Program-made: the position numbers and the translations under genes | Part shown: piece after piece, positions 4,442 through 16,080 of the stretch | Layout of the letters: each line of letters starts with the position of its first letter | How positions within the stretch are numbered: position 1 is the first letter of the stretch | Source: Halanaeroarchaeum sp. HSR-CO | Lineage (GTDB): Archaea > Halobacteriota > Halobacteria > Halobacteriales > Halobacteriaceae | Length of the DNA: 64,000 nt | Direction of reading: 5' to 3' | NCBI RefSeq assembly: GCF_024972755.1 | Contig: NZ_CP087724.1 | Location: 1,550,001 to 1,614,000 of the forward strand | The notes under the pieces: generated by a model | Told to the model about the DNA's origin: nothing | Seen by the model: only the letters and a program-made list of their open reading frames with translations | Database searches by the model: none

Positions 4442-4516
4442 GCCGGAGTAGCTCAGACTGGCCAGAGCGATTCCTTCGTAAGGAATATGTCGGGGGTTCG
4501 AATCCCCCCTCCGGCT
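4442..4516 (+). tRNA. tRNA-Thr (anticodon CGT)
   Basis: A complete cloverleaf is visible: acceptor stem GCCGGAG/CTCCGGC with discriminator U, D-arm GCTC...GAGC, anticodon stem ATTCC/GGAAT around the loop TTCGTAA, and T-arm GGGGG TTCGAAT CCCCC. The anticodon at 4477-4479 is CGT, which reads ACG threonine codons. No CCA is encoded and no intron is seen. The 3' end, from within the T-arm, is the integration target of the downstream element; the insertion kept an intact tRNA at the left junction. A TATA-like CTTATTTCC lies about 40 bp upstream. Confidence 0.97.
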
Positions 4517-4518
4517 TC
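4504..4518 (+). repeat. attL core repeat
   Basis: The sequence CCCCCCTCCGGCTTC is the 3' strand of the T-arm and acceptor stem of tRNA-Thr plus two flanking bases. It recurs exactly at the right boundary. The base before it is T here and G at the other copy; the base after it is T here and G there, so the identity is exactly 15 bp. Confidence 0.93.
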
Positions 4519-4804
4519 TCTGATATGTTCAAAGCCCCATAGCCGATAGAACCGCTCTAACCCTTCTCTTTAAATGTAGATGGCTGATTTTGCTGTGTAA
4601 GAAATGTGGTAGGTCGGCATTTCGCGGATTTTCGCGAGATCGAGCCTGCCGAATTGTTGTAGTTTCCTCAAGGTGTGCAGAGGGTGTGCAGGGGTGGGGT
4701 GGACACCCCCGACCAACATACAGCCGCTTAATCGGCCGATATCGGCAGATAAAATGTAGGGCAGCCAAGGTGTGTGGGGTGTGCAGGGGTGGATCCGACT
4801 CCAT

Positions 4805-4846
4805 GCGTGGGGCGCGTAAGCGCGCACTCCCTCGCGCACCCCACGC
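4805..4846. repeat. Imperfect inverted repeat in the origin region
   Basis: GCGTGGGG at 4805-4812 pairs with CCCCACGC at 4839-4846, and inner CGCG tetramers extend the stem to 12 bp with a small bulge. It could form a cruciform or be a protein-binding site within the putative origin. Confidence 0.7.
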
Positions 4847-4946
4847 CTGCGTAAGATATCGAACCACCCTTACACACCCTGCACACCTTAGAAAACTTAG
4901 ATATAATCCGGCGTATATGGGCATCTCAGCCGCTCTAAGCAGGGTG

Positions 4947-4974
4947 GGGGTGTGCACGAATCTCTGCACACCCC
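4947..4974. repeat. Perfect 10-bp inverted repeat with iteron half-sites
   Basis: GGGGTGTGCA and its exact reverse complement are separated by 8 bp. Each arm contains the GGTGTGCA half-site found in the iterons nearby and in the palindrome before the 1052-residue protein gene, so this looks like the strongest binding site of one element-encoded protein. Confidence 0.75.
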
Positions 4975-4994
4975 TTGCACAGCAACGCCTTACT

Positions 4995-5025
4995 GCGGTT
5001 TTCGATTTTTAGAAAAAACCACCGC
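4995..5025 (-). terminator. Putative terminator of the primase-helicase operon
   Basis: GCGGTTTT at 4995-5002 faces AAAACC-A-CCGC at 5015-5025, with an A-rich/T-rich centre. On the minus strand, the direction of the operon that stops at 5064, this gives a stem and T-runs about 40 bp after the stop codon. T-runs are the main archaeal termination signal. It could also be an AT-rich unwinding element of the origin. Confidence 0.4.
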
Positions 5026-5063
5026 TATCGTGTAATACCGCTAAGGGTAGACTTCGATGGGAG

Positions 5064-7451
5064 TTAGAACCGCTGCTGGCCGCTCGTGCTGTCGTCGTCG
5101 TAGTTGTGACGCGGCATGTCCGCGCCCATCTCCTCGACGCCGGCTGCGTTCACACGAATCCCCTTGTAGACCTGAGGTGTGTCTTTGTCGCCGTCGACGC
5201 GGCGGGATCGGCCATCGGATATGCCCGGTTCGCTCTTTAACGTCTTGGTGAACGTCGATTGTGGTACGTCGTCGGGTTTGCCCAGGTAGTCGCCGTAGGC
5301 GTTGAACAGGTCGAAAAGGTCCGCCTTGTGGACGACGTCGTCCTGGTTGCCGGTTACCTCTATCAGGTTGTGTTTGAAGCGATCGACGAGGTTACCCCAG
5401 GCGTCGGCGATATCCCGCTTCCCGTCTGCGGACCGTTCGTCGGAGAACTGGCCGTTCTCAAGCAGGCGGTCGAGACCGTCGAGCATCCAGTTAAGGATAG
5501 CCGGCCCTTCGGCGAGTAGATCGTTCGAGAGATCAGGGTCCTGCTTACTCTCCGGCACCGTATCGGGAAACTTGACGAATAGCAGCCGGTTGAAGAACGG
5601 TTCACCCGCCTGCTCGACGCTCGGCACCTGATTGGTGCTGAAAAGGAATTTCTGTGTGACCTTGAACTTGAACGGGTCCTGACCCTTCCGCTCGGCGGAT
5701 ATCCGATCGCCCCCGCCGGTGAGCTCCTTAAACTTCTCGACGTTCTTGAGACCGCCAGCAGTAACCTCGTTGCGGATGTTAGCCATCTTGCCGAACAATT
5801 CGGCCACGCCCCACCGCGACTGCATCAACTCGAATAGCGACTGTGAGGCCACGTTGTCGTCGCCCAGTATCTCCTCAATTACGTCGAGAAAGACCCCCTT
5901 GCCCGCGTCGGCCGGACCGACGAGAAAGAGCGCTTTCCCGAACGGCTGGGCATGATGCCACAGCGTGTAACCGGCGTACTCTTGCAGCTTCTTGAGATCG
6001 CCGTCCCGAACGGACTCCTCGAGGAACTCCATCCACCGAGTGCCTTCGTAGTCAGCCGTCGGGTCGTAGTCGGTGTTGATACGGTTGAGCGCATAGTCCT
6101 CCGGCGTGAGGTCCCGAAGGGTGCGGTCCCGCAGGTCGAGAAGACCGTTCGTCGTCGCCAGGGTGCCCTCCGGTGCGCCCAGGTGGTCGCGTCCGATCTT
6201 CAGGGTCGGCCGGCTCTTGATGGCGTGGGCAGCCTCCGAGTGCATCCGTTGGCTGTTGCGGTGTCGAAGCGCCCGGTGCAGCACTTCCCGTAACTGGTCC
6301 TCGCCGTCGTTCGACCAGACGCCGTCGTCGTAGGCGAAAATGGTCGAATTGTCGTCGACCCACCGCATGTGAACGTCGTCGGACTTGTCTATCATTTCCG
6401 CCAGCGTGTAGGCGAGCTCGTCGTTCCGAAGCTCGGCCAGGTCAACCTCGTCGGGGTCGTAGCCGGCCCGCTCGATAACCCGCAGCGGGTTAAGGTCAAT
6501 CGCCTGGTCGGGTTGCCCCGGACCAAAATCCCGGTCCGGTGACGGGGACGCGGCAGCCGTCCCGCCGTCCGTTTCGGGTTCGGGCAGGTCGTATCCGGCT
6601 TCTCTGCCGGCGTCAAAAATGTCACGCCAGGTGTCTGAATCGAGGCCGCCGGTATCCCATTCGCCACATTCGATTACGCCTTGCTCGATACCAAGCAGGT
6701 GCGCACCGTTTCCGGTCACACCGTGTCGCCAGCATCGCCAGGTGTCACCACCGTCGTCGACGCGGAAGTTCGTGCCCGTCTCTGAGGGATGAAACGGGTG
6801 TGCTGCATTCTCCCCTTCGGGGTACGAACTACGGGCAATCACGTCGTAGACGCCCACGTCGACGTCCGAATCGGCCGAATCGTTTGCTCCGGGTAACTCC
6901 GGAGGGCCGCCGTTGATGGCTTCGTAGGCGTCGGACAAGAACGGGTCGACGTCGACCTGCGTAATCTCGTCGTCGGCAATCTCGATTTGATTGCCGGTCA
7001 TCACAAAGAACTTCTCTGCGTAGGCTTCGACGCCCTCGTGCTCGCCCTCCGAAAAGTGTGAATCCGTCCACCAATCAGGCAGGCGGTCGCCCCTGGTGAA
7101 CACGTGGATGCCCGTGCCGCTCGTCGAGTACTGCATCCAGGTGTCGGAGAACTGCGAGAGCGACGGCAGCCACTCCTTCGGCTTTGGAGCGTTCGGCTCC
7201 CGAAGGCAGCCGTCGAGGTCGAGACCGATGTACGGGTCCTTTTCTGTGACGACGAAACCCAGGCCGTCGAACTTGTCGTTGGTCTCGGCAAGTTCGTTCG
7301 CCTCCTCGAAGGATAGCCACTCTGCGGGGTCCGTCCAACTGGCTTTGTAGCCATCTTCGTTGAGCGGAACCTTCGGCGGGTCGCTATCGGCCGACCAAAG
7401 CAACCACTGCGACCGCTCGCGAAGCTCGGCTGGGATATCCTGGGCCCTCAT
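5064..7451 (-). CDS. Primase-polymerase / SF3 helicase replication protein
   Basis: This 795-residue protein is the element's likely replication initiator. The N-terminal third resembles phage and plasmid primase-polymerases: WLLWSADSDPPKVP, the acidic GLDLDGC motif (about 76-82) and SGTGIHVF (111-118). Then comes a CHC2-like segment, HPFHPS through WRCWRHGVTGN (about 218-248), usual in haloarchaeal primases of this type. The C-terminal half is a D5-type SF3 helicase with Walker A GPADAGKG (512-519), Walker B region KMANIRNE (555-562) and sensor KFLFSTNQVP (601-610). The chosen ATG forms an ATGA overlap with the upstream zinc-ribbon gene; a longer frame to 7571 lacks conservation. It is the last gene of a five-gene leftward operon. 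Confidence 0.9.
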   Translation of the reverse strand: MRAQDIPAELRERSQWLLWSADSDPPKVPLNEDGYKASWTDPAEWLSFEEANELAETNDKFDGLGFVVTEKDPYIGLDLDGCLREPNAPKPKEWLPSLSQFSDTWMQYSTSGTGIHVFTRGDRLPDWWTDSHFSEGEHEGVEAYAEKFFVMTGNQIEIADDEITQVDVDPFLSDAYEAINGGPPELPGANDSADSDVDVGVYDVIARSSYPEGENAAHPFHPSETGTNFRVDDGGDTWRCWRHGVTGNGAHLLGIEQGVIECGEWDTGGLDSDTWRDIFDAGREAGYDLPEPETDGGTAAASPSPDRDFGPGQPDQAIDLNPLRVIERAGYDPDEVDLAELRNDELAYTLAEMIDKSDDVHMRWVDDNSTIFAYDDGVWSNDGEDQLREVLHRALRHRNSQRMHSEAAHAIKSRPTLKIGRDHLGAPEGTLATTNGLLDLRDRTLRDLTPEDYALNRINTDYDPTADYEGTRWMEFLEESVRDGDLKKLQEYAGYTLWHHAQPFGKALFLVGPADAGKGVFLDVIEEILGDDNVASQSLFELMQSRWGVAELFGKMANIRNEVTAGGLKNVEKFKELTGGGDRISAERKGQDPFKFKVTQKFLFSTNQVPSVEQAGEPFFNRLLFVKFPDTVPESKQDPDLSNDLLAEGPAILNWMLDGLDRLLENGQFSDERSADGKRDIADAWGNLVDRFKHNLIEVTGNQDDVVHKADLFDLFNAYGDYLGKPDDVPQSTFTKTLKSEPGISDGRSRRVDGDKDTPQVYKGIRVNAAGVEEMGADMPRHNYDDDSTSGQQRF

Positions 7452-7648
7452 TCGTCGACCACCTTCGACGAGTAGGCCGGCGACCCACAGTCCGGGCACA
7501 CCGTCGCTGCGGTCGTTTCGTCGCTGCCCGGCCGATCTGCGACCGCGTGCTGGTCGCCACAGTCCGTGCACCGGGCGACGACCGTCCGCGTGTCCTGTGT
7601 CCTGTCTGCACCGCTATCCGCGCCGGCGAACTCCTCGAGGGTCGCCAT
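7448..7648 (-). CDS. Small zinc-ribbon protein
   Basis: A 66-residue protein starting MATLEEFAGADSGADRTQ. Two CxxC pairs, C27/C30 and C51/C54, can hold one zinc ion in a ribbon fold; no other domain is present. Its stop overlaps the primase ATG by four bases (ATGA) and its own ATG overlaps the previous stop by one base (TAATG), so it is translationally coupled on both sides. It may act as a replication accessory or transcription factor; that is inferred only from the operon. Confidence 0.8.
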   Translation of the reverse strand: MATLEEFAGADSGADRTQDTRTVVARCTDCGDQHAVADRPGSDETTAATVCPDCGSPAYSSKVVDE

Positions 7649-7773
7649 TACCCTTCAGCCTCCTCAATGGCACTGAGGTAAGCCCCAACTGCATCCGCCC
7701 AGGGATCGTCCGACTGAGCCAAATCCTCGAGTTCTGCTTTCTCGTCGTCGGTCAACTCGGCGTCGTCGCTCAT
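7648..7773 (-). CDS. Short acidic protein of the replication operon
   Basis: A 41-residue protein, MSDDAELTDDEKAELEDLA then QSDDPWADAVGAYLSAIEEA and a two-residue end. It is highly acidic and predicted helical. I accept it because both ends are coupled: its start overlaps the upstream stop (ATGA), and its stop overlaps the next ATG (TAATG). It fills an otherwise unexplained 120-bp gap in a tight operon. Function unknown. Confidence 0.7.
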   Translation of the reverse strand: MSDDAELTDDEKAELEDLAQSDDPWADAVGAYLSAIEEAEG

Positions 7774-8069
7774 TCGAAAATCCCCTCCGGGTTGGTTCCG
7801 GCAGTTCGGTTGCCGATTTGGTGAGCCCGTTTCGCCTCTTTCACCTTCACCATGAGGTCGACCGCGGTCTCAATATTCCCCGGATAAATCACGTCGATCG
7901 CCACGCCGTCGAGGATAGCGGTATAGGCTTCCTGCTCGCCGCGGTACAGCGTCACACCGAGCAATTCGATATGGCTATTAACGGGGACGGAATCGACCGC
8001 GACAGTGTGTGCAACTTGTAACTCGCTGGGGACGTCGATCTCCTCGAGGTCGGATCCGTCCTCATTCAT
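7770..8069 (-). CDS. Hypothetical protein of the replication operon (99 aa)
   Basis: I do not recognise a family. The protein begins MNEDGSDLEEIDVPSELQVA and has a beta-rich middle (VDSVPVNSHIELLGVTLYRG) and a helical end containing VDLMVKVKEAKRAH. The ATG is preceded by GGGTGAT about five bases away and overlaps the end of the upstream gene by eight bases, which is why I chose it over an in-frame start at 8159. The stop overlaps the next ATG (ATGA). Co-transcription with the primase suggests a role in replication or copy control, without sequence proof. Confidence 0.65.
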   Translation of the reverse strand: MNEDGSDLEEIDVPSELQVAHTVAVDSVPVNSHIELLGVTLYRGEQEAYTAILDGVAIDVIYPGNIETAVDLMVKVKEAKRAHQIGNRTAGTNPEGIFE

Positions 8070-8367
8070 GGGAATCACCCAGAAATTGAAGATTTGGATC
8101 GCCAGAGGCCTCCCATTGTTCGTACCGTTCTGGAATGGACTCAACCCAGTTCTCGCCAAGTGTCTCCGGGTCGATATCCCAAAGGAATTTGGCGGTCCCG
8201 TAGGTGGGAACGCCGTGGTTCGGCGGGTTATTTACCGTCTCGTCGCTTTGGTCATCTTGGGAGCCATTGCTGGCTTCCCACCCTGGACGCGTCGGGCGAT
8301 CTCTTGGCGGAGTGGCCGGCGCGTCCGGTGAGGTGTTTTCAACCATCATTGCTGGCTTCGTGCACAC
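8062..8367 (-). CDS. Hypothetical protein, first gene of the replication operon
   Basis: A proline- and acid-rich 101-residue protein with a probably disordered N-terminal half (MVENTSPDAPATPPRDRP) and a more ordered end (TAKFLWDIDPETLGENWVES). I do not recognise it. The start is uncertain: GTG at 8367 lies about 27 bp from a TATA-like element and would be leaderless, while two ATG codons at 8349 and 8346 would give 95 or 94 residues. It overlaps the next gene by eight bases. Composition matches the operon. Confidence 0.6.
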   Translation of the reverse strand: MCTKPAMMVENTSPDAPATPPRDRPTRPGWEASNGSQDDQSDETVNNPPNHGVPTYGTAKFLWDIDPETLGENWVESIPERYEQWEASGDPNLQFLGDSHE

Positions 8368-8390
8368 GAACGCGAAGCCTGGACGGGGGG

Positions 8391-8397
8391 AATTAAG
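8391..8397 (-). promoter_or_regulatory. TATA-like element for the replication operon
   Basis: The minus strand reads CTTAATT after a C-run. Its centre is about 27 bp upstream of the GTG at 8367, the spacing expected for a haloarchaeal leaderless transcript. Confidence 0.45.
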
Positions 8398-8445
8398 GAA
8401 ACCTGACCCGTAGAACCACTTGGTGATTGGTTCTGGGTCGGGTTC
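8398..8445. repeat. Imperfect inverted repeat between divergent operons
   Basis: AACCTGACCCGTAGAACC on the left faces GGTTCTGGGTCGGGTT on the right, around a short loop with GGTGAT. The arms match apart from a two-base bulge and one mismatch. It sits between the two divergent promoters of the element, so it may be a regulator site or a transcript hairpin. Confidence 0.45.
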
Positions 8446-8522
8446 CCACCCCGACCGCGACTCCGATGCCGCATAGCGCGGCGTGTCGTTCGTGTTAACT
8501 CTGTGTTGTGCCCGGGGGGACT

Positions 8523-8546
8523 TAAGTCTAGGTAAGACTTATAACC
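8523..8546 (+). promoter_or_regulatory. Promoter with overlapping operator-like inverted repeat
   Basis: The TATA box ACTTATAACC at 8537-8546 is 25-34 bp before the ATG at 8571, predicting a leaderless mRNA. TAAGTC at 8523-8528 and GACTTA at 8536-8541 form a perfect 6-bp inverted repeat that overlaps the position of the BRE and TATA box. Binding there would block TBP/TFB, so a repressor site is plausible. Confidence 0.55.
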
Positions 8547-8570
8547 ATGGGGTGATTGCAGGTCATTGTA

Positions 8571-9215
8571 ATGCCAGAGGAAGATGGCGATATATCGGAC
8601 AACAGGCGGGAATTTCAAGAGAATCGTCCAAAGGGTTTCCTCACACAGCAAGATCGTGAATTTCTCCATGGAGAGTTGGAAATGCCCTCTGACACTGAAA
8701 AAAGGAACTCGAAAATTGCACAACGAAGGTTTAGAATTCGCGAGCGTTTTCAAGGGGCGATTTATGACATGTTGCTCGTTGACGAACTTTTGGGACGGCA
8801 GGAGATTGTCAAGGCGATCAACCGTCGGGATTCAAACAATCCCGTTCAAGAAAACGTGTTTTGGGAATCAGTTGAAGCGATGGGACAGCTTGCGTGGTTT
8901 TTGATGTTGTATGGAGGTAACACTCGGCAGGCACTGGATAGACAGAAGAAGATCATTGAGATGGAAGAACGCCTTTTGGCAGCTTTCGAAGGCAAATACG
9001 TGTTTCCAGAAGTAGAAATTTCAATCGAGTATGGCGACGTTTTAGACCCGAATGAGATTATTGAAGAATACGAAGAAACCGGTGAACCGCCCATACCAAC
9101 GGGAGAATTCACAGTGATGCTATTTGATCTTGTGAGGGCAGGTAGATTAGAACAGGATGAATTTGAGGAACTGTTACCGTACCCAATAGGGGAAATTTTG
9201 GACGGGGATGTTTGA
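8571..9215 (+). CDS. Unknown element protein (214 aa), AT-rich gene
   Basis: The protein begins MPEEDGDISDNRREFQENRP and continues KGFLTQQDREFLHGE, a motif I recall in other haloarchaeal proteins with N-terminal regulatory or coiled-coil regions. It is rich in charged residues and mostly helical, with no transmembrane segment or catalytic motif. I picked the ATG because the TATA box is about 30 bp upstream; a TTG fifteen bases earlier is possible. Codon choice and GC content are visibly lower than in adjacent genes, which suggests a different origin. It heads the rightward arm of the element. Function unknown. Confidence 0.75.
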   Translation: MPEEDGDISDNRREFQENRPKGFLTQQDREFLHGELEMPSDTEKRNSKIAQRRFRIRERFQGAIYDMLLVDELLGRQEIVKAINRRDSNNPVQENVFWESVEAMGQLAWFLMLYGGNTRQALDRQKKIIEMEERLLAAFEGKYVFPEVEISIEYGDVLDPNEIIEEYEETGEPPIPTGEFTVMLFDLVRAGRLEQDEFEELLPYPIGEILDGDV

Positions 9216-9280
9216 ATCGGCCGATGAATATACCCCTGGACTCCTCGTTTTTTGCAGTTTTAGCGGCTAACATTCAGATA

Positions 9281-9294
9281 TGGTGTGCACACCA
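9281..9294. promoter_or_regulatory. Perfect 14-bp palindrome, putative operator
   Basis: TGGTGTGCACACCA lies 24 bp before the ATG of the 1052-residue protein. Its half-site GGTGTGCA is the same as in the iterons and inverted repeat near 4.7-4.97 kb, so one protein may bind both places. Confidence 0.65.
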
Positions 9295-9317
9295 CAACCA
9301 GCGGGAGGTGTCGGTTG

Positions 9318-12300
9318 ATGGCCCGAATGGGCCCCGGCAGAGACAATTCCGGCAGCCGGTATGACGATGACGACGAGGACGATTACAGCGAATACAGGGA
9401 CGATCCCCGCCGCGACGATGACACGGGGTACGTCCCGGATGAACAAGACCCGAGCGATAACGACGAGTCGGATTCGGAACAAACCAGTGGCGGCGGTTCG
9501 ACCGGAACCCGCGGCGGGACGGCAAACGATGACGACGATAGCGGAGACTCAGGCTCGAGCAGCTCGGACGGTTCAGACGACCACAGCGAATACGAGGACG
9601 ATCCCCGTGACGACCCGGACACGGGATACGTCCCAGACGAACAACAGACCGACGATACCGGGGAGCGACCGCCAGACGACGATTCGCAAAGTGAGTACGA
9701 GGAAGACCCGCGCAGCGACCCGGACACAGGCTACGTCCCCGAGGAGCAACAAACCCACGAGACGGGCGAGCGCCCACCGCGGGAGACGCGGCAGACCTAC
9801 GACGACGTAGTTAGCGAGGAGACCAGGAGGAACACAACTGGCGGTACTCCTGGAGATGCTCAAGGGACCGGCCAGGAGGACGTCGGTTCGGGGTTCGTCA
9901 CGGAACAGGGCCGTGTCGTCGATGAGGCCGAAGCCGAACAAGCAGCAGCCGAGCGGTTTGCCAGTGAGTCCGACCGGTACGACCGTGACCAAGTCAGGGC
10001 GGAGATCGATGCCTCCGGTGCTGTGACGTTTACGCTGGCTGAATCCCTGACGGTAGACGGGCAGCGGGTCGACGAAGGAACCGAGATCGGGTCGGGAATG
10101 ATGCCAACGACCCAGGAAGCGGCCCGGGAAATGGAGCAAATGGCCATCAACGAGACGGCAGCCACCGATCCGGGAGACGTGCGGATCGTCGAGGACGAGG
10201 GGAAACTAACCACGGAGTTCTCATACTCTGGCGAGGAGAAAGTCGCCGCTGAGCAGCTCGGCGTCTCCCGGGAGGACATTGACATCCGGGACGGGTCTAT
10301 TGTCCCGACGAGCGACGAGGGCCGCGCGGCCGTCGTCGAACACCGTGGATCCGGTCTCGCGGAGGAGGGAGACGGGTACGGTGGTGTGCGAGAGAACGCC
10401 AGCGATCTCGCCGAGAAGTCCGATGGCTACGGCGGTGAGATATCCGCCCAGGACCGTGCCCTGATTGAACTTCGCGAGGAGGTAGGTCGGCCGGTCGATC
10501 CTGACGATGTCGAGATAGTTGAAAAGGACGGTGCAACCGTCGCGAGATACGAACAGGGGGCTTCTCAGGAGCGTTTTGACGTCGATTGGTCCATGGGTCT
10601 CGGCGGTCCCGGTGACGAGGTCGAGCGAGGTTTGGACACTGCCATCGACACACTCACTCAAATCGGTCGTCAGGCCGGCGGTCTCGCTGGGGGTGGCGCC
10701 GGTCAGTTGTACATGCAGCCATTGAGGGGTGAGGAGATGGACATCGACGCGGCGATCGAGGAGAACCGCGAAGCCCAGTCCTGGGCCGCTCGTGATTTTG
10801 AGAACATCATTACTGGGGTCACCCTCCTTCCGGCGATGGCAGCCGAGACTGGAAAGGGCGTGCTCGAGGTGAATGAGTGGGGCATCGAAGCCGCGGAGAT
10901 GTACACCGACGCTGCGCTCGGTGACATGGACGCGGAGGCGTTATCGGAGTTCGAGGAGTTCCAACTTGATACCGAAGCGGCGGCCAGCGAAACGGCCACA
11001 CAGGCCGTCGAAGGCGTTCAGGATAACCCGCGACAGTTCGCCGGGATGGCCGTCGGGTCGCTTCTTGGAACCGGTGCGCTCTTTGCTGCGACGTCAGGGA
11101 CTCGTCTCGGCTCCGCCGCCCGGTGGTCCATCCAGCCAGGTGAGGAGCTCGCGACGGCCGGCGCCACACGCCTGGCCGCCCGATCGGCCCGCGGTCGCCG
11201 TGCCTTGGAGTCCCTTCCAGGCGAGCGGATCGACGTCGAGGAGATAACGATTGCCGGGGCGAGAAGCGTGGGTAAACGTGTGCGGAACGTCGATCTTGAC
11301 CCCGATTTCACTCCCTCACCGCGTCAACAGGACTTGATCGAGTTCGGGCGGCCCGTGGGAAGCGCAGAAGCGACGACCGGCGGGGAATCCCCGACCGGGT
11401 CGATCGAGGAGGGGTCGCTCGCCGGGCGGACCACTGGGCAGCGTGCACAGCCGAGTGAGGCGTCCGAGACCGGGACGACGGGCGCACAGTCCGAACCGCT
11501 CGGCAGCCCCACTGAGGACATCCTGGATGCAAGTCTCGGCCCGACGGAATCCGGTTTCGTCCCCGAGCAAGAAACCGGGTTAGGACCGACGGGGAGCCGC
11601 CCCGCAGATTCCGGCGGTGTGACCGAGGAGATGGAACGTATTGCTGGCGAGGTTACCGGTCGCGAGCAGCTCGGCCAGGCCATCGAGGAGTTCGGCGTCG
11701 ATGTTCGTGAGTTCGCAACGGCAGAACGGGGCCAGACCCAACTCACCGGGCCGTCAAAGTCTGAGGTCGGTCCCAGTATCGACGAGGATAGAGTGACGGC
11801 GAACCTGTACCAGCAGGCAGTAGCGTCTCGTACGCTTCGCGACTTTCGGAATCTCGAGGGTGGCGACTACGATGGGACTCGACCCGCCTTCGAGACCGAG
11901 AGCCAGGCAGAGACGGAAGCCGAGCGCCTGTCGCAGCGGGCGATGGACACGGAAGTTCGAACCGAGTCTACCGGTCTCCCGGAGGTCGGTCGAATGGAAT
12001 CCATCGGGGCGCAGATCGGTGTGGACATCGGCGTCGACGCGGCCGTGATCGAGCGCCAAGCCCCGGGGGTCGATGTCGGTGAGATGGCAATGGCGATGGC
12101 CGGCCCCGACATCCAGGCGGATACCCGCGTGGATACTCGGTCGCAACTCCAAGGCGCCAGCGCCGAATTCGGATTTGAATACGAATCTGAGTTCGGTATG
12201 GAAACTGAGTTCGAAATCGGCCGGTTGGAGATGGGATTCGATATGGATCCGCGCCCCGAGACGCGCTTGGATTCCAAGACTTTCGGTGACCGTCCAAACG

Positions 12301-12476
12301 ACGACATCGGCGGGCCGGTTATCGATCCCGATGAATTCGGAATTGATTACACCAACCCCGTCGCGACGTCGTTCGATGTCCTCGGGATCGGCCAGGCAGG
12401 TGGCGAATCCGATATCGGTGGCGACGTCGGGATCGACGCGGAGAAAATGGGAGTAACATTTGAACCAACAGGGTGA
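9318..12476 (+). CDS. Large acidic repeat-containing protein (1052 aa), unknown function
   Basis: The largest gene of the element. The ATG (MARMGPGRDNSG) is eight bases after GGGAGGTG. Residues about 15-150 are extremely acidic and hold three copies of a unit of the form SEYxDDPRxDxDTGYVPxEQ, the last two also followed by TGERPP. A fourth degenerate FVPEQ occurs later (SGFVPEQET). The middle is helical and has Gly/Ala-rich hydrophobic stretches (AGGLAGGGAG; GMAVGSLLGTGALFAA) that could be membrane-interacting. The C-terminal quarter has periodic IGVDIGVDAAV and EFGMETEFEIGRLEMGF patterns. There is no signal peptide and no enzyme motif. Size, repeats and position suggest a structural or surface-associated protein of a virus-like or vesicle-forming element, but no homologue is recognised. 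Confidence 0.85.
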   Translation: MARMGPGRDNSGSRYDDDDEDDYSEYRDDPRRDDDTGYVPDEQDPSDNDESDSEQTSGGGSTGTRGGTANDDDDSGDSGSSSSDGSDDHSEYEDDPRDDPDTGYVPDEQQTDDTGERPPDDDSQSEYEEDPRSDPDTGYVPEEQQTHETGERPPRETRQTYDDVVSEETRRNTTGGTPGDAQGTGQEDVGSGFVTEQGRVVDEAEAEQAAAERFASESDRYDRDQVRAEIDASGAVTFTLAESLTVDGQRVDEGTEIGSGMMPTTQEAAREMEQMAINETAATDPGDVRIVEDEGKLTTEFSYSGEEKVAAEQLGVSREDIDIRDGSIVPTSDEGRAAVVEHRGSGLAEEGDGYGGVRENASDLAEKSDGYGGEISAQDRALIELREEVGRPVDPDDVEIVEKDGATVARYEQGASQERFDVDWSMGLGGPGDEVERGLDTAIDTLTQIGRQAGGLAGGGAGQLYMQPLRGEEMDIDAAIEENREAQSWAARDFENIITGVTLLPAMAAETGKGVLEVNEWGIEAAEMYTDAALGDMDAEALSEFEEFQLDTEAAASETATQAVEGVQDNPRQFAGMAVGSLLGTGALFAATSGTRLGSAARWSIQPGEELATAGATRLAARSARGRRALESLPGERIDVEEITIAGARSVGKRVRNVDLDPDFTPSPRQQDLIEFGRPVGSAEATTGGESPTGSIEEGSLAGRTTGQRAQPSEASETGTTGAQSEPLGSPTEDILDASLGPTESGFVPEQETGLGPTGSRPADSGGVTEEMERIAGEVTGREQLGQAIEEFGVDVREFATAERGQTQLTGPSKSEVGPSIDEDRVTANLYQQAVASRTLRDFRNLEGGDYDGTRPAFETESQAETEAERLSQRAMDTEVRTESTGLPEVGRMESIGAQIGVDIGVDAAVIERQAPGVDVGEMAMAMAGPDIQADTRVDTRSQLQGASAEFGFEYESEFGMETEFEIGRLEMGFDMDPRPETRLDSKTFGDRPNDDIGGPVIDPDEFGIDYTNPVATSFDVLGIGQAGGESDIGGDVGIDAEKMGVTFEPTG

Positions 12477-12481
12477 CACCA

Positions 12482-12667
12482 ATGACAATATCGCAATATC
12501 AGAAGGGATACGCGGACGGAAAGCGAGAGACGCGGGACCGAATCATCAAGCGAATGCACGAGGATGGCCTGTCGCAATCGCAGATCGCGGGATACGTGTA
12601 CATCAGTCGGCAGCGAGTAAATCAGATCGTGAACGACGAACCGGAGACTCGGTTAGCTCAACACTGA
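12482..12667 (+). CDS. Mini helix-turn-helix DNA-binding protein
   Basis: A 61-residue protein, MTISQYQKGYADGKRETRD, followed by a clear HTH: RIIKRMHEDGLSQSQIAGYV then YISRQRVNQIVNDE. The second helix and recognition helix resemble sigma-70 region 4 or Hin-recombinase-like domains. GGGTGA precedes the ATG by six bases and overlaps the stop of the large upstream gene. A GTG nine bases earlier (GTGA overlap) is an alternative. It probably regulates the element, and is the best candidate binder of the GGTGTGCA sites or the modules just downstream; that link is inference. Confidence 0.75.
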   Translation: MTISQYQKGYADGKRETRDRIIKRMHEDGLSQSQIAGYVYISRQRVNQIVNDEPETRLAQH

Positions 12668-13346
12668 GTTCGGACGATTCCGACATTGTCGAAATCGCAT
12701 CCTTTGCTTGCACCCGTTGTCCTGAAATGCGGATGTCGTTACCTGTGAGAACTGTATAGCCCGAATTAAACTTCTCAATAGCAAATATAGGGTACGGTGT
12801 TCGATTTACCGGTTAGTTTGTTGGTTAGACGAGTTTCCTATATCTATAATACGTGTATAGACAGCTCAGGAATCTCCAATCTAAGAATACACCTTAAACC
12901 ATCGAGACCTGCCGAACGATCGAGGTCGCTTCCTCCGCTTTCACCCTTCCTCTCTAATTCCCGACGTCGGTGCTCGTACTGATTGAATGCGAGCGGTTTG
13001 GGTTCTCTCGCTGCAAATATGGACACCGGTGCCAGGACGAAGGAACAAACCACAGAAACAAACCAGATATCTATACTGTATAACGTGTATAGGAGCTTCT
13101 CGGGGGTGGATGTTTGGAATTAACGGGGATATCCATAACGCGGATCTCGATTCCTCCGCTTTCACCCCGGTTCGATAATCAGCGACGACAGCGCCTGTTA
13201 TGATTGTACTCGGCCGATGTTCGTTCTAAATTGCAAATGTGAACGGCGGCCCGACGAACGACCGGGTACACACGAACGAACATAGATTATCTGTACTGTA
13301 TAACGTGTATAGGGAAGTTCGATGCGTGGCCTGTTCGTAGTCGCGC
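12668..13346. other. Long intergenic region with three repeat modules
   Basis: No gene is supported in these 680 bp. The region is richer in A+T than its flanks and holds three spaced 80-nt modules (annotated separately) plus two copies of ttcctccgctttcaccc at 12930-12946 and 13151-13167. It lies between the end of the rightward arm and a leftward small gene. Confidence 0.8.
12781..13312 (+). repeat. Three 80-nt modules with conserved ends and fixed length
   Basis: Modules run 12781-12860, 13013-13092 and 13233-13312. Each begins GCAAATAT or GCAAATGT and ends in TATCTRTA...ACGTGTATAG, and all are exactly 80 nt although the interior has diverged. In modules two and three the final block, CTRTAC-TGTATAACGT-GTATAG, is an inverted or near-inverted repeat; the first has a shorter version. 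Start-to-start distances are 232 and 220 bp. After each of the first two modules the 17-nt pyrimidine-rich block recurs. These may be promoters of three small RNAs, partition sites or iterons. It is not a CRISPR array. Confidence 0.75.
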
Positions 13347-13652
13347 CTATTCGTTCACGTCCTCGAGGGCCTGGACAAGAGGAAGCACTCTTTCCTCAAG
13401 GATATAGGCGAGCTCTTTCGCATTCGCTATCTGTTCCTGAACGTCACTCTCGGTCGGCTTACCGGGATTGATGGAATCGTCTGGTTCAACAGTTCCATAC
13501 AACCCGGACGCGATCGCGGTTGCGTCCTGCACAGCCCTCAAACGCTGTGATAACAACTCGCTCGTCGATATAATCGCGAGTTCTTGCACCGTGTTTTCCT
13601 CACCGTTGAACTTATTCGTCGAGCCCACATTGGTTTCAATTGCGTCTGACAT
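13347..13652 (-). CDS. Hypothetical helical protein (101 aa)
   Basis: The protein starts MSDAIETNVGSTNKFNGEEN and appears mostly helical, with SELLSQRLRAVQDATAIASG and a C-terminal helix ELAYILEERVLPLVQALEDV. No family is recognised. It is transcribed towards the repeat region, alone, and diverges from the RHH-type gene; the 173-bp gap between them carries a palindrome and an inverted repeat. It could be a small regulatory or structural protein of the element. The acidic composition and full ATG-to-stop frame support a real gene. Confidence 0.6.
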   Translation of the reverse strand: MSDAIETNVGSTNKFNGEENTVQELAIISTSELLSQRLRAVQDATAIASGLYGTVEPDDSINPGKPTESDVQEQIANAKELAYILEERVLPLVQALEDVNE

Positions 13653-13741
13653 TGGTCAGGGGCACCGTCGGCGGGTGTCATACCACCCGGCGACTTTCTC
13701 GACGTCGCTCCGGTGCGTAGTTCTATGTCTATCATGGCATA

Positions 13742-13803
13742 CCATAAGCTTATGGGATATTTAATCCTATATGGGTTGGGCAATAACTACTATAACCCAA
13801 CCC
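13742..13803. promoter_or_regulatory. Palindrome and inverted repeat before the RHH-type gene
   Basis: CCATAAGCTTATGG (13742-13755) is a perfect 14-bp palindrome. GGGTTGGG (13773-13780) and CCCAACCC (13796-13803) form a perfect 8-bp inverted repeat around the AT-rich segment holding TATAAC, about 30 bp before the ATG at 13826. Antitoxin-type proteins usually repress their own promoters at such sites, so autoregulation is likely. Confidence 0.6.
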
Positions 13804-13825
13804 ACCTTATGATGAGTATAATACT

Positions 13826-13957
13826 ATGGGACGTACAACAATCCAAGTCGACGACGAAACCGCTGATGAGCTGCATGAATTGAAGGAGCGCGGTGACAGT
13901 TACGACGACGTAATCCAACGCCTTCTCGGAAATACAGATGTAGAGGCCCCCGAATAG
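13826..13957 (+). CDS. Mini antitoxin-like (RHH/DUF7557-type) protein
   Basis: A 43-residue protein, MGRTTIQVDDETADELHELK, continuing ERGDSYDDVIQRLLG. The short beta strand, then two helices, and the DSYDDVIQRLL motif are characteristic of haloarchaeal VapB-like or ribbon-helix-helix antitoxin proteins. A TATAAC box is about 30 bp upstream. Its stop is followed after three bases by the next gene's ATG, so the two form a cassette. No PIN or other standard toxin follows, unlike in the usual VapBC pair. DNA binding at the upstream palindromes is expected for the fold. Confidence 0.75.
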   Translation: MGRTTIQVDDETADELHELKERGDSYDDVIQRLLGNTDVEAPE

Positions 13958-13960
13958 AAC

Positions 13961-14566
13961 ATGAGTGAGGAGATCGCTTCAGTCAGGGGGCGTGTCCTCG
14001 AGCAGGATTATCGAAACATCGGCGAGGCGGTCCCTGAAACGGTCATGGTTACACCCGGAGGGGACAGGTTCCATTTGCCAGATCCGACGGCTGAGGATCA
14101 ACCGATGTGCAGCGCGAAAAATTACGATGTCGATTTTCTCGATGTTCACCGACAAAATGCCATCAACTCCGGCTTTTACGCTTGTACAACCTGCTTTCGC
14201 CCCATCCTTGTGTACCTAAGCATCTCCCCGGATAGCCCAGTCGAACGGTCTGAAGGGTTTCGAGATTTGTCCCCGGATGTCGACGTACCCATTAGAGAAA
14301 TCGGTAAAGACGAATCGGGCAAGAACCAATCTTCGGGGCCATTTACCGAAGCAAGCGTTTCCTCACTGACCCAGGAGGTGTTGGCGACGTCGAGCACCAT
14401 GCACGCACCCACGAAGGACGGACCGCTGTGTGGGACTTCCGGGAGTTTTCGCCGCGTCGAACCTGAGAAGGTAGAGGAATTTCGCGAGCCCTGTGGGCTG
14501 TGTTTTGACGTAGAGTACGATGAATCGGAGGTGGAGAGAGACGTATGGAAGAAATCTGAGGCCTAA
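13961..14566 (+). CDS. Protein with a duplicated His-Cys3 zinc motif
   Basis: This 201-residue protein follows the antitoxin-like gene by three bases. I do not recognise the family. Two similar potential zinc sites are visible: H38, C50, C75, C78 (H-x11-C-x24-CxxC) and H148, C157, C178, C181 (H-x8-C-x20-CxxC), each inside a similar context (HLP or HAP, then CSA or CGT, ending CTTCF or CGLCF). They are separated by a probable linker with many Ser and Asp residues. The duplication suggests an internal domain repeat. The location suggests either the effector partner of the preceding protein or an element regulator. Confidence 0.72.
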   Translation: MSEEIASVRGRVLEQDYRNIGEAVPETVMVTPGGDRFHLPDPTAEDQPMCSAKNYDVDFLDVHRQNAINSGFYACTTCFRPILVYLSISPDSPVERSEGFRDLSPDVDVPIREIGKDESGKNQSSGPFTEASVSSLTQEVLATSSTMHAPTKDGPLCGTSGSFRRVEPEKVEEFREPCGLCFDVEYDESEVERDVWKKSEA

Positions 14567-14727
14567 ATGGACCACCAATAAGGATCAGATCGGCATTCTT
14601 TATATATACGATTCTCTAAGAGCGTCACAGACGCGCCACAATCGATTTCTCCCCCAAGAGGATGAATGGGTCTCGATTCGAATTCAAACGGACGGGTTTC
14701 GGCGGGGTGTGCCCGTCGCGGAGGTGT

Positions 14728-14747
14728 GACGGGTTCGATACCCCGTC
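14728..14747 (+). other. T-arm-like hairpin at the integrase 3' end
   Basis: GACGGG (14728-14733) pairs with CCCGTC (14742-14747) around a loop containing TTCGATA, which resembles a tRNA T-arm with one extra base. No D-arm, anticodon arm or acceptor stem can be built around it. It overlaps the last bases of the integrase gene and may be a transcript terminator or a relic of another tRNA-derived att site. Confidence 0.4.
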
Positions 14748-16014
14748 AATCTCGACTGTCGGCGAATCGGGTCACCGCTTCCGCCAGTGCATCGGGGTCA
14801 TCTTTTACCCGATCGTATGCCTTTCGTAGCGCTTTCCGCGTCCCCGGGTCGTCAGATTCGGCCATGGCGTCGAGCATCCTGTCCTCCATTTCGCTCATCA
14901 TCCGTGAGACTCCGGGTTCGAGGGCCTGCCCACACCACACGCACATGTCCTTGTCTCGGGGCGTGTCTTGGCCGCAATTCGGACACTGGAGCGGGCTCCG
15001 ATCCTCCGGTTCATCCTCCTCGACGTCAAGACCGTGCAGCTTCGCATACTCCCGATCGGAGTCCTCCTTGAAGATAGAGACGTACCGACTGGCGACCGTC
15101 GACCCACGAACCCACCCATATCGGTCCTCGATGTGCGCCTGGTTCATCCCGCGACTGGCCGCCCAGGACGCACTTGATTTGCGGAAATTGGTCGGCGTGA
15201 CTGGTTTCGTAACACCGGCTTTCTTCGCTGCTCGTTTGAATATTCGCCCCTTGAGACTGCGGCTGATTTCTGTCGGTTCGTTCAGCTTCGTCCACAGGGG
15301 GGCGCCGGGATCGTCGCCGGCAGGGTGGGCGGCCAGCCACCGATTGACGTATGGCACCGACGGAATGAGCGTCACTGAGCGCTGACCCTGCTTCCCCTGG
15401 ACCGTCACTTGAAGGCCATGCTTGTGGTCGTTAATGTCGCCCACAGTAAGGCCGGCGTATTCCCCACCCCGGAGACCCGCGTCAAATTGTAGCGCTATGG
15501 CCGCCGCGTCTCTTTCGTTTGCAGCGGACTCAAGCATTGGCTTCACGTCCTCCTCCCATTTGAGCATCTTTCCCGGGTCCGGCGCCGGATCGTATGTGCT
15601 GCTTGTCGTCGCACTCACCCACGCGAGCGGACGCGGCAGTCCTTTGTCGCTCAACTCGACGTCGTCGGGGACGTGCTCCCCAGCATCGGCGAGCACCTTA
15701 CCGAACCGCCGAAATGCCACACGGTAGTCGCGGTTGGTCTCCTCGTTGTCGTACTCGTCGTGTATCCAGCCGACCACCTGCTTCGCCCGCCCTTTGTCAT
15801 CAAAGGCTTCGACGAGTGGCCCGGCGTTCTTGGCCATCATGTGCCCGTGAGTAAGCAGCTTCTTGTGCCGATGATCGGAGTATTGTGACTGCCGTAACTG
15901 AAGTTCGCGAGAAAACGCTAACAGTGCGTTACGGTCTGCTTCGGATATGTCACCACGTCGGTAGTCGCCCTCGATCCGCCACCGGGTGCGTTCAATGGCC
16001 CCGTCCATGCTCAC
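14746..16014 (-). CDS. int: Tyrosine recombinase (integrase) with C-terminal zinc ribbon
   Basis: This 422-residue phage-type integrase should catalyse integration and excision at tRNA-Thr. A SAM-like N-terminal DNA-binding region (about 1-130) precedes the catalytic domain. Catalytic residues are Arg182 (GLRGGEYAGL), Lys208 (VQGKQGQR), Arg278 (TNFRKSSASW), Trp301 and the nucleophile Tyr311 (VASRYVSIF). The usual box II histidine three residues before Arg278 is Thr275. A zinc ribbon follows, C344/C347 and C358/C361, then a helical tail. The gene starts 51 bp inside attR and reads into the element. The ATG begins MSMDGAIERTRW; a second ATG two codons later is possible. Confidence 0.93.
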   Translation of the reverse strand: MSMDGAIERTRWRIEGDYRRGDISEADRNALLAFSRELQLRQSQYSDHRHKKLLTHGHMMAKNAGPLVEAFDDKGRAKQVVGWIHDEYDNEETNRDYRVAFRRFGKVLADAGEHVPDDVELSDKGLPRPLAWVSATTSSTYDPAPDPGKMLKWEEDVKPMLESAANERDAAAIALQFDAGLRGGEYAGLTVGDINDHKHGLQVTVQGKQGQRSVTLIPSVPYVNRWLAAHPAGDDPGAPLWTKLNEPTEISRSLKGRIFKRAAKKAGVTKPVTPTNFRKSSASWAASRGMNQAHIEDRYGWVRGSTVASRYVSIFKEDSDREYAKLHGLDVEEDEPEDRSPLQCPNCGQDTPRDKDMCVWCGQALEPGVSRMMSEMEDRMLDAMAESDDPGTRKALRKAYDRVKDDPDALAEAVTRFADSRD

Positions 16015-16065
16015 CCGTTGTACCTACGGTCTATTATAACCCCGGCTTTGAACAAATCAGCCAAG

Positions 16066-16080
16066 CCCCCCTCCGGCTTC
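16066..16080 (+). repeat. attR core repeat
   Basis: An exact copy of the 15 bp CCCCCCTCCGGCTTC from the tRNA-Thr 3' end. It lies between the integrase start and the next chromosomal gene and marks the right edge of the element. Confidence 0.93.

Follow-up and report, generated by a model that had tools for sequence, protein, structure and literature searches.

An integrative element in a haloarchaeal tRNA-Thr(CGT) gene carries a gene of lemon-shaped haloviruses and may spread as their satellite

What kind of mobile element occupies the tRNA-Thr(CGT) gene of Halanaeroarchaeum sp. HSR-CO, and how might it spread? The window analyzed here is a 64,000-nt stretch (G000:C1:1550001-1614000) of this 2.79-Mb haloarchaeal genome. 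It contains an 11.6-kb segment that the original prediction, made from the letters alone, described as a complete integrative element whose cargo matches no halovirus group. We found that one of its genes codes for a large acidic protein that belongs, as judged from sequence profiles, to a family whose genes lie within the cluster of virion genes in lemon-shaped haloviruses of the LSV-48N type. We tentatively interpret the element as a plasmid-like replicon that integrates, carries a phage-type primase-SF3 helicase and may spread as a satellite of these viruses.

The boundaries of the element in tRNA-Thr(CGT), at 4504-16080, are supported by its terminal repeats, by arm-like sites, by the position of the integrase gene and by a cousin in the same tRNA gene whose site is empty in another genome. 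The two copies of the 15-bp core CCCCCCTCCGGCTTC are exact, as first reported, and are the only ones in the whole genome; the chance expectation for a 15-bp repeat with at most 2 mismatches is 0.28 matches in the window. A complete tRNA sequence stands on the left, where the core overlaps its 3' end, and the integrase gene starts ~50 bp inside the right repeat, both as anticipated. Furthermore, the inner sides of both ends carry arm-like sites that are 88% complementary over 24 nt, a quality of match reached by 2 of 5000 random pairs; in a circular form, these sites would flank the core symmetrically and resemble arm-type integrase sites. At 58.2%, the GC content of the element is below the 64.5% of the remaining window; its listed genes, which are uninterrupted, cover 83% of its length.

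A search for related elements in tRNA genes, proposed along with the original prediction, revealed the cousin in G110. Like ours, this 18-kb element occupies tRNA-Thr(CGT) with its core in the same position (13 bp, CCCTCCACCGGCT, at both ends), has an integrase of the same family within its right end (41-47% identity) and encodes a large-protein homologue; it differs by its size, a Rep-Arvir initiator (73% to that of LSV-48N), an AAA ATPase and a lemon-virus-type ATPase. G286 provides its empty site, resolved to the base: the tRNA 3' end joins the sequence found beyond the right end in G110, with the 13-bp core in common. The same right-flank sequence adjoins a family integrase in G264 and G142. 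An empty site of the window element itself was not found, its left flank adjoining tRNA-Thr(CGT) in many relatives and its right flank in none. Only one congener was found, G001, and it has the tRNA, left flank and a homologue of the right flank at widely separated places (G001:C1 962650, 1077315 and 1242964), indicating that this neighborhood has been rearranged. A similar TTCAGAGCC site comes after tRNA-Thr(CGT) in G001 and G030; in G030, the next gene codes for an integrase of this family. Insertions of ~6.7 and ~6.5 kb occur at this tRNA in G177 and G180. The one in G177 (L160:6046-12761) has genes for a same-family integrase, for an initiator of the Rep-Arvir type and for a membrane protein of the LSV11 type, but for neither the large protein nor an adhesin.

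The large protein links the element to viruses. It was originally singled out as huge, acidic and repetitive, and it does have a pI of 4.05 and three repeats in its N-terminal part. Its core (residues 430-650) is predicted at low confidence to be helical, with a hydrophobic stretch; modeled with AlphaFold from two sequences, it reached a predicted local distance difference test score of 36, a quality too low for fold comparison. Across 391 haloarchaeal genomes, a four-sequence profile of these residues picked up family members in 14, one of them being the genome of the window. LSV-48N is a lemon-shaped Haloferax virus published in 2025 (PP151251.1; PMC12714723). A profile of five members from virus-type loci, built without the sequences of the window, G110, G350, G194 or LSV-48N, matched the window protein at 75.5 bits (E 5e-24; reversed control 0.2) and the LSV-48N protein, CDS0015, at 53.8 bits (reversed control 0.8). 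The homologue in G108, a genome of the same genus group (g40) as G110, is 31% identical to CDS0015 over 268 aa (E 2e-17). Direct BLASTP of the window protein against the LSV-48N proteins was not significant, so that the homology is drawn from profiles and from sequences that bridge the two, and neither plain tblastn against phages and plasmids nor a pattern scan of IMG/VR returned a match. Since the primase also has a full-length relative (38%) in a Halorubrum tailed virus, the statement that the cargo resembles no halovirus is not supported.

Nine virus-type loci carry the large-protein gene (G108, G183, G348, G130a, G197, G181, G054, G306a and G024). In all of them, a P-loop ATPase and a large adhesin-type protein of the LSV12 family, with signal-like N-terminal and membrane-like C-terminal stretches, are encoded nearby; most also have LSV11- and LSV19-type proteins. 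Small membrane-protein genes likewise neighbor the large-protein gene in virus-type loci. G108 and G183 match most proteins of the LSV-48N cluster, and the G183 ATPase is 74% identical to that of LSV-48N, which is annotated as DnaA-like. According to the published description, 13 LSV-48N proteins were detected in supernatants (PMC12714723).

Like LSV-48N, which is temperate, the window element bears an integrase and a CDS0015 homologue. In contrast, it is half the size and lacks the ATPase (LSV23), the adhesin (LSV12) and the membrane-protein families LSV11, 14, 16, 17, 19 and 20: its stop-to-stop frames gave no match to iterated profiles of these families or of LSV22, and none of its annotated proteins passes the threshold for a membrane segment. 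It also has a different replicase, and the Rep-Arvir initiator (LSV26) had no match in it. Without a match to the families tested, the element does not qualify as a lemon-shaped virus of the LSV-48N group. Could it be the decaying remnant of one, a provirus that lost most of its virion genes? One cluster gene does remain, and the 64-aa helix-turn-helix (HTH) protein encoded immediately downstream shows a weak likeness to the HTH at the C-terminus of the G350 ATPase. However, no remnant of the nine other families was seen among the stop-to-stop frames, the listed open reading frames (ORFs) are uninterrupted at the coverage given above, and the primase is of a kind that a tailed virus also has, whereas LSV-48N and several virus-type loci have the Rep-Arvir initiator. 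We consider a reduced provirus improbable.

Three further elements, G110, G350 and G194, bear an integrase and encode the large protein with a virus-type ATPase; no adhesin, LSV11 or LSV19 family member was found in them (~50 kb around the gene was examined in G194 and G350). Separately, we observed lemon-virus-type ATPase and adhesin genes on three plasmids whose annotation consists largely of hypothetical proteins: L097 (Natronomonas pharaonis plasmid PL23), L168 (Natrinema sp. DC36) and L169 (Halobaculum pCBA1158-3). They resemble genomes of lemon-shaped viruses that were deposited as plasmids, and they did not match the large-protein profiles. Two lemon-virus gene clusters, L085 and L086, lie ~41 kb apart on one chromosome (G306:C1, ~460 and ~502 kb), and Halomicrobium urmianum plasmid unnamed3 (L170) contains tandem repeated segments, each with an adhesin-family gene and an integrase gene.

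Profile searches confirmed the primase-SF3 helicase domains originally proposed. The replication operon runs on the minus strand from 8349 down to 5064, encoding proteins of 95, 99, 41 and 66 aa and then the primase, more distant relatives of which occur in 21 of 291 other haloarchaeal genomes searched. P4-type phage satellites combine a P4-family primase, tRNA integration and small size, and the element resembles them in all three respects (TIGR01613 for the primase domain); it differs in that its virus gene is of the lemon-shaped group, and family searches recognized no P4 morphogenesis genes.

Primases of this kind are present on both phages and plasmids, and the integrase family is widespread (111 of 292 haloarchaeal genomes, and at tRNA-Thr(CGT) in other genera too). 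Both observations would suit an ordinary integrative plasmid that excises, is transferred by host-mediated means and captured the large-protein gene by chance, as would the small elements in the same tRNA of Haloferax-group genomes, whose integrases are of this family and which have no large-protein gene. Yet the gene is intact and its 3.2 kb occupy about a quarter of the element, and genes of the same kind are found in the three other integrase-bearing elements without adhesin, of which G110 has a different replication gene. We judge chance capture by a plasmid unlikely, though it is the strongest rival reading.

We return to the satellite reading. An element with its own replication and integration genes, one lemon-virus gene and no other virion gene among those tested may borrow the particles of a virus. 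Integration by the tyrosine integrase joins the 15-bp core to the tRNA-Thr(CGT) 3' end and, as the sequence shows, keeps the tRNA complete on the left side. The element would later excise as a circle, to be replicated by the primase-SF3 helicase from a structured region beside the primase gene or from iterons. The large protein might then let the element DNA enter particles of a superinfecting helper virus, by analogy with pSSVx and SSV2. As described in two publications, pSSVx is a satellite of a fusellovirus (SSV2) in Sulfolobus; it encodes a prim-pol replicase together with counterparts of two SSV genes, B251 and A154, which are implicated in replication and packaging (PMC9608457, PMC4158269). 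Compared by description, pSSVx and the window element both combine a plasmid-type prim-pol/SF3 replicase with very few spindle-virus genes and no virion set. The window element differs in keeping the large protein instead of B251/A154 homologues, in sitting in a tRNA gene, in its presumed rather than demonstrated dependence on a helper, and in having no DnaA-like ATPase of the LSV23 type. It therefore follows the pSSVx pattern only partly.

Several points weigh against a satellite. Its packaging, helper and particle are hypothetical, and the putative virion role of the large protein is read from gene order. The window element is without the ATPase that G110, G350 and G194 keep. A profile search of the host genome found no second large-protein gene, and the LSV-48N adhesin used as a query found nothing there, a negative that had no control; any helper would thus come from outside. 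Finally, the core phylogeny of the large protein fails to resolve, and for this reason we do not claim independent captures of the gene. With still more reserve, we suggest that there may be a class of such satellites that integrate beside chromosomal genes, tRNA-Thr among them, and retain one or two genes of the virus; the large protein would direct the satellite DNA into helper particles. Variants of this putative class could have the large protein with or without the ATPase or, as in G177, pair an LSV11-type membrane protein with a Rep-Arvir-type initiator.

The original prediction had also envisaged an undescribed integrative plasmid, vesicle or satellite type. Of these, the satellite is favored, though unproven, and a vesicle of the pR1SE type is not supported by its core genes. 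The pR1SE/apHPV vesicle plasmids have ten core genes, including an ORF7 S8 (subtilisin-like) protease and an ORF25 HerA-like ATPase (PMC10818511). The window element is likewise a haloarchaeal mobile element without a recognizable capsid gene; it measures 11.6 kb against a core region of 18-44 kb, and its Pfam matches include neither an S8 protease nor a HerA-like ATPase. The absence of these hallmarks also bears on an autonomous virus or vesicle element of a new type, whose particle would be made of the large protein and host membrane. Several ORFs without matches, and the low-confidence helical core and hydrophobic stretch of the large protein, would fit such a particle; the lack of a predicted membrane protein and of a detected adhesin would not, and we regard this explanation as highly improbable. 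As predicted, Pfam, PHROGs and further family searches gave no convincing match to a capsid, terminase or relaxase profile. A pleolipovirus, with its membrane spike and small membrane protein, was rejected because no annotated protein passes the membrane-segment threshold and PHROGs gave no structural-protein match, an integrative conjugative element on the absence of relaxase, coupling or VirB4-type ATPase profile matches, and a defense function on the absence of a convincing PADLOC match.

The remaining features are collected in Table 1. Two regions are candidate replication origins. The first, at 4665-4990, folds much more strongly than its shuffles (z = -6.5). The alternative candidate is the iteron region, where the predicted origin-like repeats were recovered as two 26-bp copies, 96% alike, and a weaker third. 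Relatives of the 95-aa protein are encoded close to the large protein in the G194 and G350 elements. The duplicated zinc motif originally noted was confirmed as two CxxC pairs in the 201-aa protein, which has relatives in 4 of 241 other haloarchaeal genomes searched; neither it nor the 219-aa protein had relatives in a pattern scan of IMG/VR.

Table 1. Features of the element and its integration site (window coordinates)
Feature	Position	Strand	Remarks
tRNA-Thr(CGT)	4442-4516	+	integration target; its 3' 13 nt form part of the att core
attL core CCCCCCTCCGGCTTC	4504-4518		exact 15-bp repeat, covers 3' end of tRNA-Thr(CGT)
Left arm-like inverted site GGCTTCTCTGATATGTTCAAAGCC / TGTTCAAAGCC	4513-4536		24 nt; partner 16044-16067
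Non-coding region with GGTGTGCAGGGGTG repeats, direct and inverted	4665-4990		large predicted hairpins; beside 3' end of primase gene
Primase, 795 aa	5064-7451	-	D5_N and SF3 helicase domains; P4-family primase C-terminus (TIGR01613)
66-aa zinc-ribbon-like protein	7448-7648	-	overlaps primase start; matches below curated cut-offs
41-aa acidic ORF	7648-7773	-	in primase operon
99-aa protein	7770-8069	-	no match in family searches
95-aa protein	8062-8349	-	first gene of primase operon
214-aa protein (219 aa from TTG start)	8571-9215	+	possible regulator; weak relative in G072
Large acidic protein, 1063 aa	9285-12476	+	first ATG 9318; homologue of LSV-48N CDS0015
64-aa HTH protein	12473-12667	+	directly after large protein
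Iteron-like repeats	near 12844, 13068 and 13288 (region 12844-13313)		units of ~220 bp; 26-bp copies at 13068 and 13288, weaker third near 12844
101-aa protein	13347-13652	-	no convincing match
43-aa protein	13826-13957	+	ribbon-helix-helix-like by sequence; relatives in other elements
201-aa protein	13961-14566	+	two CxxC pairs
Tyrosine integrase, 422 aa	14746-16014	-	Phage_integrase E 1e-14; C-terminal zinc ribbon
Right arm-like inverted site GGCTTTGAACAAATCAGCCAAGCC / GGCTTTGAACA	16044-16067		24 nt; partner 4513-4536
attR core CCCCCCTCCGGCTTC	16066-16080		exact 15-bp repeat

Integrative elements in tRNA genes and satellites of viruses are known kinds. As far as our searches show, an element that keeps only this gene of lemon-shaped haloviruses is undescribed, and a non-exhaustive search of the open-access literature turned up no description of satellites of haloarchaeal viruses. 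If the satellite reading is true, the lone retained gene would point to a protein needed for DNA recognition or loading in lemon-shaped virions. Furthermore, the tRNA-Thr(CGT) hotspot would then offer a ready set of elements for testing this with LSV-48N in Haloferax, whose genetics are tractable.

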